Positions 3,519 through 27,738 of a stretch of 64,000 nt of DNA are shown piece after piece. Source of the stretch: Planotetraspora phitsanulokensis (lineage in GTDB: Bacteria > Actinomycetota > Actinomycetes > Streptosporangiales > Streptosporangiaceae). The stretch lies in the NCBI RefSeq assembly GCF_016863295.1, contig NZ_BOOP01000034.1, positions 1 to 64,000 on the forward strand, read 5' to 3'. The position numbers and the translations under genes were made by a program. A model generated the notes under the pieces. The model searched no databases. It was given only the letters and a program-made list of their open reading frames with translations, and was not told the origin of the DNA. Within the stretch, counting starts at the first letter, position 1. Every line of letters starts with the position of its first letter.

Positions 3519-3893
3519 ATGGAGAACGTGATCGTCGTGCCGGGATTGGGCGGTTCCGGTCATGACCACTGGCAGTCCTACTGGCTCCGGGACCGGCGCG
3601 GCGCCGTTCGGGTCGAGCAGCGGGACTGGGAACGGCCGGACCGGGATGAGTGGGTTGCCGAATTGCACGACACGGTCCAGCGGGCCACAGGACCGGTCGT
3701 GCTGGTGGCACACAGCCTCGGCTGTCACACCGTCGCCCATTGGGCTCACCGACACGACGCCCAGGTCCGTGCGGCGCTGTTGGTGGCGCCGCCCGATATC
3801 GACTACTCGGCATCCCACGGCGCGCCGATCGCCGGCTTCGGCCCGCCCGCAGCGAACCCGTTGCCGTTCCCGACTGTCCTAGGGCCTGTCTGA
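3519..3893 (+). pseudogene. RBBP9/YdeN-like serine hydrolase, 5' part (interrupted by IS)
   Basis: First two thirds of an alpha/beta hydrolase of the RBBP9/YdeN type. It starts MENVIVVPGLGGSG, has the nucleophile elbow AHSLGCH (Ser) and continues VAAPP-like (LLVAPPDID). The frame runs into the insertion at 3883 and stops at TGA 3891-3893 inside the element. Joining 3519-3882 to 5683-5861 restores one uninterrupted 180 aa protein in frame, with one copy of CTAG at the junction. The Asp/His of the triad lie in the separated 3' part, so the gene is inactivated as it stands. Confidence 0.85.
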
Positions 3894-4773
3894 CAATTTG
3901 GCGTGGCGGAGCCAGAGCATGAGGCTGGCGATGGTGGCGCCGGCGAGGTAGCGGCTGGCGAGTTTGTCGAAGCGGGTGGCGATGGCTCGCCATTGCTTGA
4001 GCTTGCCGAAGCAGCGTTCGACCAGGTTGCGCTGCTTGTAGATGTCGGCGTCGAAGGCGTAGGAGCGGCCTCCCTGGTTGCCTCTACGTGCCCGGTTGGC
4101 GAGTTGGTCGCGGCGTTCGGGGATGACCGCTTTGATGCCGCGCCGGCGCAGGTAAGTGCGGATGCTGCGGGAGGAGTAGCCCTTATCTCCGAGCAGGATG
4201 TCGGGGCGGGTGCGGGGTCGGCCACCTGTTGGGCGGCTGATTCGTAAGGTGGCCATGACCGCTTCGAAGGCGGTGCAGTCGACCACGTTCCCGCCGGTCA
4301 CATGCAGGGCCATCGGCAGACCACGACCCTCGGTGATCAGGTGGAGCTTGGTGGTGAGTCCTCCGCGGGACCGTCCAAGGGCCTGCCGGATTTGCGAGTC
4401 CTTCGTATCGATCGTCCCGCTGTCATCCCCTTTTACGCGCACCGGCGGCATGCTGATGGGCCCGGGCGATGGTCGAGTCAATGCTGACGACCCACTCAAC
4501 GTTGCCGACCGAATCGTCCTTGACCTGCATCTGTTCCAGCAGTCGCGCCCAGGTGCCGTTCTCGTCCCAGCGCTTGAACCGCTCGTAACAGGTCTGCCAG
4601 GGCCCGTACCGCTCGGGAATGTCGCGCCACGGCGATCCGGTCCGCAGCCGCCACAAGATCCCATCGATGACCTGGCGGTGGTCACGCCACGGACGGCCGC
4701 GCGCGTCTGTGGCGGGTAACAGCGGCTCGATCCGCTGCCAGGCCTTATCGGTCAGCTCACCACGTCTCACCAC
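3879..4773 (-). CDS. IS5-family DDE transposase (two frames, programmed frameshift)
   Basis: OrfA (4423-4773) starts MVRRGELTDKAWQRIEPLLP, has the DUF4096-like N-terminal domain (WRDIPERYGPWQTCYERF) and the first catalytic Asp (SIDSTIARAHQ). The second frame carries the rest: LGDKGYSS (second Asp) and NLVERCFGKLKQWRAIATRF (catalytic Glu). The frames join around 4425-4440 at a run reading AAAAGGGG on the coding strand, a plausible slippery site. The C-terminus reads LSDRP and ends at TAG 3879-3881. That stop lies in the CTAG target duplication, not in the element. All DDE residues are present, so the enzyme may be active. Confidence 0.85.
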
Positions 4774-4820
4774 GAACGATCATCTAACCGCACCAGCAGA
4801 GATCATTTACCAGACAGGCC
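3883..4820 (-). mobile_element. IS5-family insertion sequence (IS427-like)
   Basis: 938 bp element. Both terminal repeats begin GGCCTGTCTG and then diverge (ACAATTTG at the left end, GTAAATGATC at the right). It encodes one DDE transposase in two overlapping frames. The right end abuts CTAA (4821-4824), the left end CTAG. Subgroup assignment comes from the two-frame organisation and the protein motifs. Confidence 0.82.
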
Positions 4821-4861
4821 CTAACCATGCGATTACCTGTTCGCGGCCACTATTCGTCGTC

Positions 4862-5506
4862 GTGAGTGAATCTTCTGACGAGGGCGGTCAGCCGGCGGCG
4901 TTCCCGCCGGCCTCCCCTCACCCCCCACCTCCTCTCTCCGGCGCTCCCGTGCGGGCCGGCTCGTACGGCAGGCTCCCGCCGTACCTGTTCGGCGTGCTCG
5001 CGCGAATGCAGATCGGACCGCGTGGCAACTCCAGGAACCTGTGGGTCGCCGTCGCCATGTTGGTGGTGGCCGTGGCGATCGTGTACCCCGGCGTCGTCCG
5101 CTACCTCGGCTCGGCTCAGCGGGACGACGCGGGAAGGGTGATCAGTAGCGGGTCGGTGCAGATCACCGGCATGCACGTCGGCGACTGCGTGGACGGCCTG
5201 GTCCTGGGCGGAACGCAGACCAGCGTGACGGCCACGCCGTGCGGCCAGCCGCATGAGGCCGAGGTCGTCGACCGGACGGCCGGGCCTTCGGGCGACTGGC
5301 CAGGCGTCGACGCCGTACGCGAAGGCGCCTTTTCCACCTGCGACGCGCAGATCGCCCAGAAAGTTCTGGGCGGCCCGTTGGCCGATCGGCTCGTGAGCGT
5401 GGTCTTCTTCCCCCATGACGAGGCGGCGTGGATCCGAGGGGATCCGATCACCTGCCTGGCGGTCGACAAGGACGGCGGCAAGCTGACCGGGCCGGTGGGC
5501 TCATGA
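4862..5506 (+). CDS. Septum formation family membrane protein (passenger gene)
   Basis: A 214 aa protein: a Pro-rich cytoplasmic N-terminus (residues 1-55), one membrane helix (LWVAVAMLVVAVAIVYPGVV, about 60-80), then an extracellular domain starting VGDCVDG with CGQPHEAEVVD, a Cys near CDAQIAQKVLG and a final Cys (ITCLAVD). This is the pattern of the actinobacterial septum-formation domain (PF13845-like). The GTG at 4862 opens the family-like N-terminus, and the longer frame upstream runs through the IS end. It sits inside the composite element, oriented opposite to the transposase, and is followed by a strong hairpin, so it is a self-contained transcription unit. Precise role unknown. Confidence 0.75.
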   Translation: MSESSDEGGQPAAFPPASPHPPPPLSGAPVRAGSYGRLPPYLFGVLARMQIGPRGNSRNLWVAVAMLVVAVAIVYPGVVRYLGSAQRDDAGRVISSGSVQITGMHVGDCVDGLVLGGTQTSVTATPCGQPHEAEVVDRTAGPSGDWPGVDAVREGAFSTCDAQIAQKVLGGPLADRLVSVVFFPHDEAAWIRGDPITCLAVDKDGGKLTGPVGS

Positions 5507-5507
5507 C

Positions 5508-5542
5508 GGAAGGGGGCGGTTGCGGCTGAAACCGCCCCCTTC
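5508..5542 (+). terminator. Strong hairpin after the passenger gene
   Basis: Perfect 14 bp inverted repeat GGAAGGGGGCGGTT / AACCGCCCCCTTCC with a 7 nt loop, two bases after the stop of the septum-formation-like gene. No U-tract, as is common for high-GC terminators. Confidence 0.75.
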
Positions 5543-5558
5543 CCTGAGAGCACGCCGG

Positions 5559-5678
5559 GCTCAAGCAATGGCGAGCCATCGCCACCCGCTTCGACAAACT
5601 CGCCAGCCGCTACCTCGCCGGCGCCACCATCGCCAGCCTCATGCTCTGGCTCCGCCACGCCGAATTGTCAGACAGGCC
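5559..5678 (+). repeat. Inverted 120 bp terminal fragment of the IS5-family element
   Basis: Matches the complement of 3883-4002 with one visible mismatch (GAATTG against AAATTG near the tip). It encodes only the transposase C-terminus. It provides the right end of the composite element and lies directly against CTAG 5679-5682. Confidence 0.88.
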
Positions 5679-5681
5679 CTA

Positions 5682-5861
5682 GCGGCCAGCAGCACCGACC
5701 CCTGGGCAGAGATCAACTGGTCCCGCCTGCTGGCCAAACAGTGGGGCGCAAGGTTCGTGAACCTCGGCGACGTCGGCCATGTCAACCCCGAGGCCGGCTT
5801 CGGTCCATGGCCCCAGGGTGAGGAACTGCTCCGAGACCTCCTTACCGAGACCGCCGACTGA
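5682..5861 (+). pseudogene. RBBP9/YdeN-like serine hydrolase, 3' part
   Basis: Continuation of the gene at 3519. It reads AASSTDPWAEINWSRLLAKQ and then GDVGHVNPEAGFG, with the Asp (STDPW) and His (GHVNPEAG) expected for the RBBP9 catalytic triad. It ends at TGA 5859-5861. Its frame is exactly continuous with 3519-3882 once the element and one CTAG are removed. No start codon of its own. Confidence 0.85.
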
Positions 5862-6040: not shown

Positions 6041-6274
6041 GATCAGGGGTTCGTCCGTCGGTCGATCGGCCAGGTGGCCAAGGACTTCGATCTGACCGAC
6101 ACCGCGGTGCGGGACTGGGTCCGCCAGGCCGAGGTCGACGCCGGAGCCCGTGACGGACTGACCAGCAGCGAACGCGAAGAACTGGCCGCATTGCGGCGGG
6201 AGAACCGCCGGCTGCGCGAGGACGTCGACATCCTCAAGCGGGCCACGGCTTTCTTCGCGAAGGAGACCCGGTGA
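6041..6274 (+). pseudogene. IS3-family OrfA, N-terminally truncated
   Basis: The open frame after TGA 6038-6040 reads RRSIGQVAKDFDLTDTAVRD, a helix-turn-helix of IS3 OrfA. It continues into the leucine-zipper region LAALRRENRRLREDVDILKR and ends ATAFFAKETR, the standard OrfA terminus. The usual first 15-20 residues and an ATG are missing. GTG 6074 would lose part of the helix-turn-helix. It overlaps the OrfB start by 4 bp, as in intact elements. Confidence 0.75.
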
Positions 6275-6720
6275 GCGTTGACCTGTTCATCGAGGCGGAG
6301 AAGCAGGGCGGCCACAACGTCAAACGGGCGTGTGAGCTGCTGGACGTCTCCCGCGCCGCCTTCTACGCCCGCCGCAACGCTGCTCCTGGCCCTCGCGCTG
6401 TCCGCGACAAAGAGTTGAGCGAACGCATCGGCGCCGTCCACCGCGAATCGCACGGAACCTACGGCGCGCCGCGCATCCACGCGGCCCTGCAGCACGAAGG
6501 CGAACGATGCGGACGCCGACGCGTGCCCGGCTGATGTGCGCGCTGGGATTACAGGGCAGACACCGGCGGCGCGGCAGATCACCACGATCCCCGCCCCGCA
6601 CCGCCGCCCGCACCGCGATCTACGAGTTCATCGAGAGCTGGTACAACCTACGACGTCTGCACAGCAGCCTCGGCTACGGCGGCACCGGGGGAGTGGCGTC
6701 CGGCTTGCCGTCCATGTCGA
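6271..6720 (+). pseudogene. IS3-family OrfB with catalytic core deleted
   Basis: Begins MSVDLFIEAEKQGGHNVKRA with the HTH_21 segment CELLDVSRAAFYARRN and ESHGTYGAPRIHAAL. The frame then breaks near 6505-6534. A later frame gives AIYEFIESWYNLRRLHSSLG, the conserved C-terminal end. The whole rve/DDE core (about 130 residues, with all three catalytic acids) is absent, so the remnant cannot catalyse transposition. Confidence 0.78.
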
Positions 6721-26754: not shown

Positions 26755-27738
26755 CTACTTCAAGAAGGTGAGCAGGCGCCGGGTCATCTCGTCGGGATGT
26801 TCTTCGTAGATCCAGTGGCCGGAGTCGGCGATTACCACGCTGGTGACGTTGGTGGCGTAGTCCTCGACCTGCGTGCCGACGAAGTCCTTGAGACTGTGGT
26901 CGGCTCCGACCGCGAGCACCGGCATCGTCAGCTTCGTCCGCTTGTTCACCGCGTTGTCGTCGATGTCGGTCGGGAAGGCGCGGAACCATTCGAAGCTGGC
27001 CCGTAGGTGCGCGTCGTCCTTGAGATACTTCGCGAAGACCTGCACGTCATCGGCGTCGACGCCGTCCTTGACCACCTCGAGGTGGTCGGTGAAGCCTTGC
27101 ACCCACTGTTCCTCCCGGCCGTGCACGGACTCCTCAGGCAGGCCGTTGGTCAGCAGGAAGAAGCCGAACTGCCACGGGCCGGGGCCGTCCTCGGTCAGTG
27201 CCGGGAACGAATAGATGTTCTCGTCTGGGATCGGCGCCTCGCTGAGCACCAGCCGTTTGACCTCGTTGGGATGGGCGGCGGCGTAGGCGTAGGCCACCAT
27301 CGTTCCGATGTCGTGCCCGACCAGCCGGATGTCCTTGTTCAGTCCCAGCTCGACGAGCAGGCCGTGAATGTCGGCCGCCATCGTCTTCTTGTCGTAGCCG
27401 CCGACCGGCGCGTCACTCTTGCCGGCGCCGCGCAGGTCAGGAGCGATGATCGTGTACCGCGCCGCGAGAGCGGGCATGATCTCGTGCCATTCGTACCAGG
27501 TTTCCGGGTACCCGTGCAGCAGCACCAGCACGGGACCGTGGCCGCCCCTCACGTAATTGATGCCGACAGCGCCGACGCGGATCTTCTGTTCGGTGAAGCC
27601 TTTCGGCAACCGGCTGTCGGCGGTGCCCCGGCTGTGCGAGGCGGCCGCCGAGGGAACCGCGAACGTCGCAACGGCGGCGAGTAGGACGCCGGCCGCACCG
27701 GCCGACACCCAGGCGCGGATGCGTGAACCCGTTCTCAC
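26755..27738 (-). CDS. Secreted alpha/beta hydrolase, epoxide-hydrolase-like
   Basis: 327 aa with an N-terminal signal peptide (about residues 1-33). Oxyanion motif HGYPETWYEW (HGxP), nucleophile VGHDIGTMV (Asp in place of Ser, as in epoxide hydrolases and haloalkane dehalogenases) and catalytic His in DSGHWIYEEHP. DLRGAGKSDAP is also typical. Epoxide hydrolase is the best family call. Export is unusual for that class and suggests an extracellular substrate. ATG 27738 overlaps the stop of the preceding hydrolase gene by 4 bp, so the two hydrolases are coupled. Confidence 0.87.
   Translation of the reverse strand: MRTGSRIRAWVSAGAAGVLLAAVATFAVPSAAASHSRGTADSRLPKGFTEQKIRVGAVGINYVRGGHGPVLVLLHGYPETWYEWHEIMPALAARYTIIAPDLRGAGKSDAPVGGYDKKTMAADIHGLLVELGLNKDIRLVGHDIGTMVAYAYAAAHPNEVKRLVLSEAPIPDENIYSFPALTEDGPGPWQFGFFLLTNGLPEESVHGREEQWVQGFTDHLEVVKDGVDADDVQVFAKYLKDDAHLRASFEWFRAFPTDIDDNAVNKRTKLTMPVLAVGADHSLKDFVGTQVEDYATNVTSVVIADSGHWIYEEHPDEMTRRLLTFLK

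Follow-up and report, generated by a model that had tools for sequence, protein, structure and literature searches.

A probable degenerate composite transposon, bounded on one side by a solo IS end, in a serine-hydrolase gene of Planotetraspora phitsanulokensis

How did a membrane-protein gene come to lie between two ends of an insertion sequence (IS) in the middle of a serine-hydrolase gene? The question is raised by a 1.8-kb block that splits a serine-hydrolase gene (3519-5861) in the window, by which is meant the whole stretch of 64,000 nucleotides of Planotetraspora phitsanulokensis DNA that was analysed. The window lies on contig C34 of G000, the organism's own genome, which is a draft of 95 contigs and 9.17 Mb. 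From left to right, the block consists of a full IS, a passenger gene, a stem repeat and an inverted solo IS end. It is very likely a degenerate composite transposon, in which the passenger, held between two like IS ends, would have entered a TA of the hydrolase gene as one unit. This is a known kind of event; in the new example, one side of the composite transposon consists of no more than an IS end. The features of the split gene and the block are as follows.

3519..3881, plus strand: 5' half of the hydrolase gene, closing with one copy of the TA target (PF06821 at 1.6e-39, profile positions 1-119 of 172; 95% amino acid identity to the uninterrupted gene of congener G003)
3880..3881, no strand: left copy of the TA target duplication (flank reading)
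3882..4821, minus strand: full IS of 940 bp, IS427 type of the IS5 family, with the transposase-3' end on the outer (left) side (NF033580 above cut-off for both frames)
4423..4773, minus strand: first transposase frame, 116 aa (DUF4096 at 5.6e-32; ORF list)
3879..4685, minus strand: second transposase frame, with the DDE domain (DDE_Tnp_1 at 1.4e-19)
4822..5558, plus strand: passenger segment, including the upstream TA and the downstream inverted repeat (homology to G001:C12 from the IS joint onward)
4862..5506, plus strand: passenger gene, 214 codons and stop (PF13845 at 5e-05, 23.4 bits; 57% amino acid identity to congener G001 over residues 40-214)
5508-5543: inverted repeat with a 14-bp stem, 3' of the passenger gene (repeat search)
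5559..5679, minus strand: solo IS end, 121 bp, from the transposase-3' side, in the orientation opposite to that of the full IS (differs from the end of the full IS at 1 of 121 positions)
5680..5681, no strand: right copy of the TA target duplication (flank reading)
5682..5861, plus strand: 3' half of the hydrolase gene (PF06821 at 5.4e-14, profile positions 122-171 of 172)

The passenger has an IS copy or end on both sides, the full IS and the inverted 121-bp end, as a composite transposon should. An earlier note on this DNA had described a full IS and an inverted terminal fragment around a gene, with mirror-image outer ends, and both observations are borne out: the two parts are 940 and 121 bp long, and inverted arms of 124 nt (3879-4002 and 5559-5682) lie 1556 nt apart and are 99% complementary. 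Within the element, the two outer ends mismatch at one of 121 positions; their near-identity suggests that the pair was recently formed or has been kept homogenised. The outer flanks read CTA followed by GGGCC on the left, and GGCCC followed by TAG on the right.

These flanks had been read as a duplication of CTAG, a claim that gave way to TA once relatives of the IS were compared. Of thirty IS loci fetched from the family, ten other than that of the window were legible by eye at both ends (L078-L086 and L089, with L087 and L088 left outside the ten because the right end was not read). Eight of these ten full-length relatives have TA at both ends, and the other two, L080 and L085, at a single end. 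In four of the eight two-sided TA relatives (L083, L084, L086 and L089) the CTAG-type 4-mers disagree between the two sides, which rules out CTAG as a 4-bp duplication. Judged from these flanks, the duplication is TA and the adjoining C and G would be target or IS bases; a TA duplication sets the limits of the IS at 3882-4821 and those of the solo end at 5559-5679. The 2-bp duplication, found in eight of the ten relatives and at the outer ends of the unit, and an IS5-kind DDE transposase both agree with membership of the IS427 type. In the block, TA borders three full edges, namely the two at the hydrolase joints and that of the full IS on the passenger side. Since TA is the usual target, these three edges alone cannot separate entry as one unit from stepwise models. 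At a locus in another genome, L094 400-1549 (G637:C45), an IS5-type copy next to an inverted IS fragment of 340 bp is flanked left and right by one dinucleotide that is not TA, so a target other than TA may at times be used.

The hydrolase flanks yield a 180-aa frame when they are joined with one TA. The earlier note had described this frame upon excision, correctly as to its length, with one CTAG at the joint. At neither TA-flanked joint is a hydrolase base missing. The 5' half found matches in 10 of 60 relatives, own genome counted, and the two close ones were both congeners, G003 at the identity given above and G002 at 92% over residues 50-122. The G003 hydrolase is full length and uninterrupted, with 172 of 181 positions identical counting the stop, and that of G002 is uninterrupted across the joint, with a differing 5' part. 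The passenger is absent from the hydrolase site in both. The block is thus an insertion, given that these two genes are uninterrupted and lack the passenger, and the empty sites together with the TA outside both block ends fit a composite transposon.

Both empty sites read CTGG at the joint, and the joined flanks of the window read CTAG, so that the TA target itself is not seen in relatives. The difference would be a synonymous change of TG to TA in a leucine codon, and a single such change before insertion could explain TA on both sides. The proposal that relatives would show an uninterrupted hydrolase was accordingly right except for its single CTAG. Two findings had been named as fatal to the insertion: the passenger gene conserved at this locus in relatives lacking the IS did not turn up, as neither G003 nor G002 has it there, and an uninterrupted locus without CTAG did turn up by letter, through one synonymous base that leaves the insertion itself untouched. 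G002 shares further DNA with the window upstream of the locus (934-2339), the stretch fetched from G003 shares the hydrolase part alone, and homology to both stops downstream at about 5907. We take the split enzyme to be RBBP9/YdeN-like, with the catalytic Asp and His of the hydrolase fold presumably falling in the 3' half (5682-5861); with these residues so placed, the 5' half alone should be inactive, and hydrolase activity would have been lost by the split. Pieces of an IS3-type transposase are found 3' of the split hydrolase, at 6074-6534 of the window (HTH_21 above cut-off, HTH_Tnp_1 just below).

The two frames of the IS score 137.8 and 157.5 bits with NF033580 (IS5 family transposase), against a cut-off of 110. 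Elements of the IS427 group have two overlapping transposase frames, a layout that the window IS matches, and their rows in Table 2 give a 2-bp duplication save for one with 4 bp, as described in the available part of the source (PMC3281130). The window IS is alike in both its frames and its 2-bp duplication, but at 940 bp, with a terminal repeat of 11 bp by eye, it differs from the Paracoccus IS427 rows in that part, which are 832-865 bp long and have longer repeats (PMC3281130). Six IS matches were found in the own genome, and the window copy is the only full-length one found in this 95-contig draft. In the family search (341 genomes, two candidates scored per genome), 108 genomes, own genome counted, had an IS match at E 1e-30 or better, and the best full-length match outside the own genome was 85% identical. 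In the IS427 type, the two overlapping frames are joined by a frameshift. The two transposase frames in the ORF list for the window IS are offset by +1, whereas the 21 loci with both motifs found, among 29 other loci, have an offset of -1 in 16 cases, +1 in four and 0 in one. With this atypical +1 offset, which could also stem from a sequencing error in a homopolymer, the copy may or may not make transposase. The description of the IS as active therefore finds no support in this copy, the only full-length one found in the draft and one whose offset is +1 where 16 of 21 others have -1.

The C-terminal part of the passenger is weakly like Septum_form, scoring below the curated PF13845 cut-off (23.4 versus 25 bits), and the names "septum-formation-like" and "cell-division-type" given to the gene earlier go back to this sub-threshold label. 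Its relatives in G002 and G001 pass the same profile (37.1 and 36.1 bits) and are DUF4190+Septum_form proteins; profile searches gave no DUF4190 match for the passenger. Hydropathy shows one hydrophobic segment in the passenger and two in the G002 relative, and NCBIfam returned no family for either protein. The closest passenger relative found lies on contig C12 of congener G001, with 57% amino acid identity and, over two pieces, 74% and 77% DNA identity. This match begins at the inner edge of the full IS: in the window the IS end is followed by TAACCATGCGATTACC, and G001 has the same letters preceded by unrelated DNA. A search of the G001:C12 locus with the window IS gave no match. Because G001 carries these letters without the IS, the IS of the window adjoins DNA that belongs upstream of the passenger gene. 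The G001:C12 copy has an in-frame stop after 63 codons. A neighbour gene of this copy, metallophosphoesterase-like by eye, was found in one of five genus genomes, G001 itself, and a donor locus in the own genome was rejected on that ground.

Other relatives of the passenger, in G002, G003, G004 and on contig C52 of the own genome, share one common neighbourhood beside groEL (identified by eye). A 15-row tree groups the passenger with the G001 copy at 99/99 support, on a long passenger branch (0.68 versus 0.10); the tree program warns that long rows may be misplaced. In pairwise comparisons, dN/dS is 0.76 between the passenger and G001, 0.69-1.00 between the passenger and the others, 0.67-0.79 between G001 and the groEL-side copies and 0.30-0.54 among the latter; since only the last 137 codons of the passenger entered its comparisons (90 with C52) and longer stretches entered the rest, this contrast is to be taken as a hint and no test. 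By sequence comparison, the passenger appears to be a fast-changing relative of the DUF4190+Septum_form gene adjoining groEL. It looks like a loosely constrained spare copy and has no evident part in transposition. A scan for promoters and terminators found none of either, and 5508-5543 is called a stem only since no terminator was found; a similar-looking stem is present, by eye, downstream of the groEL-side relatives.

The groEL-side homologue of the own genome (G000:C52, about 26913-27406; L048 8914-9305) is about 50 residues shorter than those of G002, G003 and G004, in frame and inside the C-terminal domain. In G001:C65 (44492-44958) the groEL neighbourhood is kept and the homologue between the matched blocks seems to be gone (467 bp versus 997 in G002), the only G001 homologue found being that at C12. 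This internal deletion and apparent loss can be invoked as signs of decay for a wider proposal, that the transposase accepts like ends and that a gene-carrying IS spreads a variant DUF4190/Septum_form gene through the genus, replacing decaying groEL-side copies. The proposal is an improbable one. The window IS gave no match near other homologues in loci L008-L029, L107-L121 and L044-L048.

The degenerate composite transposon would have formed in another genome, in or near the genus. An IS427-type element may have entered a TA there that lay shortly upstream of a free-standing gene for a membrane protein, with a second, inverted IS copy downstream of that gene, and the second copy would have been reduced to its outer 121 bp. 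Transposase would have paired the two outward-facing transposase-3' ends, and the whole 1.8-kb block would have moved into the TA of the serine-hydrolase gene, duplicating the TA and splitting the enzyme. The structure, its joints, the empty target in two congeners and a donor-side joint without the IS can all be seen in the DNA. What we infer is that a second copy once existed, in which order the steps took place, that two like ends were used, where the transposase came from and that the enzyme lost its activity. Entry of the block as one unit is the most likely course, since a lone IS leaves unlike ends and the two joints with the hydrolase have one and the same IS end. The empty sites, the exact joints and the presence elsewhere, without the IS, of DNA from upstream of the passenger uphold the earlier view that a bracketed unit was inserted into an intact hydrolase.

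Several other histories could lead to a similar arrangement. The outer ends might have been unlike at entry, with the IS copies in direct repeat, and the left IS might later have flipped in place by recombination between the inverted repeats at its termini. In Wolbachia, 9% of the IS loci studied are reported to have undergone flips of this kind (PMC3004938). A flip of the left IS would leave terminal repeats and flanks unchanged, and the sequence is compatible with it; however, it requires an extra step and a shared terminal repeat that is here only 11 bp by eye, and two inverted copies already account for the structure, which makes a flip unlikely. Alternatively, the IS could have entered the hydrolase by itself, and the passenger and second IS could have been added later by insertion or recombination. 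Side-by-side independent insertions do occur. A survey of 18 genomes, chosen because their IS matches were strong or numerous, scored 27 of the 76 to 197 candidates in each genome and listed 78 matches; it found, by eye, one other outward-facing pair of like ends within 10 kb, in which an IS lies beside an inverted IS fragment on G637:C45. There, the flanks of the IS itself match, unlike those outside the pair, which shows an independent insertion beside a fragment. The window shows the opposite, and where a single IS would give unlike joints, its two joints share the same end, are flanked by TA and have cost the hydrolase no base. Stepwise assembly in place is thus quite improbable.

A third alternative is an assembly artefact in which repeats were joined. 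The genome is a draft of 95 contigs and IS repeats are common misassembly points, but one full IS copy is present, the block is internal to a contig of 158,983 bp and the restored hydrolase frame is exact, so an artefact is very improbable. That the passenger is native to the hydrolase locus, with IS copies landing on either side, has no supporting point that we could find and is almost certainly wrong, as both empty sites lack the passenger and the homologues of G002, G003, G004 and the own genome lie near groEL and that of G001 at C12, a test made on G003 and G002, the congeners in which the hydrolase was found (its 5' half had no match in G001 or G004 in the 60-relative search).

Entry as one composite unit would make the passenger a mobilised gene, as the earlier note had it, for the insertion at the present locus. 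The further expectation, that the same passenger would be found between IS ends elsewhere, was disappointed in the genomes and plasmids searched. A second copy of the unit was not found in the own genome, in 341 family genomes with the IS (two candidates scored per genome) or the passenger (eight) as query, or in 396 phylum genomes with the DNA of the passenger segment (two). The phylum search matched 46 of the 396 genomes, own genome counted, and outside the own genome the matches were short and weak only. With the block as query, 439 plasmid records matched a part and none had one place covering 80%; in phages, nothing matched the passenger. Only the plasmid search used the whole block as its query, and with so few candidates scored per genome, rare or weak genome copies could be missed. 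In scans of genome contigs, peptide patterns of the passenger matched 31 stretches, of which none was confirmed, and a 32-base pattern of the IS end matched nowhere. The literature searched held no publication on this unit. With no second copy in the genome and plasmid searches, the unit was rejected as a recurring element. It does not mean that the unit is immobile; the unit was seen at one place and not in motion, and with no second copy its movement as a unit is read from one locus.

Tn10 and Tn5 are composite (compound) transposons with inverted IS copies. The window unit resembles them in having a gene between inverted IS ends and a target duplication at the outer ends, but one of its flanks is only 121 bp long, its passenger has no known selectable trait and it was found at a single locus. 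Transporter IS and mobile insertion cassettes are grouped here with transposable modules as the comparison for a single full IS with cargo. The window unit shares this composition with transposable modules and differs from them in its recognisable second IS end, which makes a one-ended mechanism unnecessary. In such modules one IS copy mobilises adjacent DNA (PMC3281130). Another comparison is offered by the Streptomyces plasmid NZ_CP134205.1 (L132 2924-4323), where 1400 bp between TA flanks hold IS5-like transposase sequence and a 132-aa ORF. Like the window unit, this element has a cargo ORF in IS5-type ends, TA on both sides and, by eye, termini of like type; it differs in its cargo, is 69% identical in DNA over 827 IS bases and has no such solo end. 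Its existence means that cargo inside IS5-type ends is not unique to the window.

The locus is a clean worked example in that the target side and a donor-like side are both visible. A 121-bp IS end and one full copy seem enough to carry a chromosomal gene to another site. Should two like ends be sufficient in this IS group, the solo IS ends scattered in such genomes would be potential partners in the capture of genes. At G604:C2 275949-276126 and G571:C1 324051-324227, in two genomes of one genus, this IS end occurs as a solo copy. Both copies are cut at query position 178; they may be an ancient remnant common to the two genomes, or a mobile end of small size.
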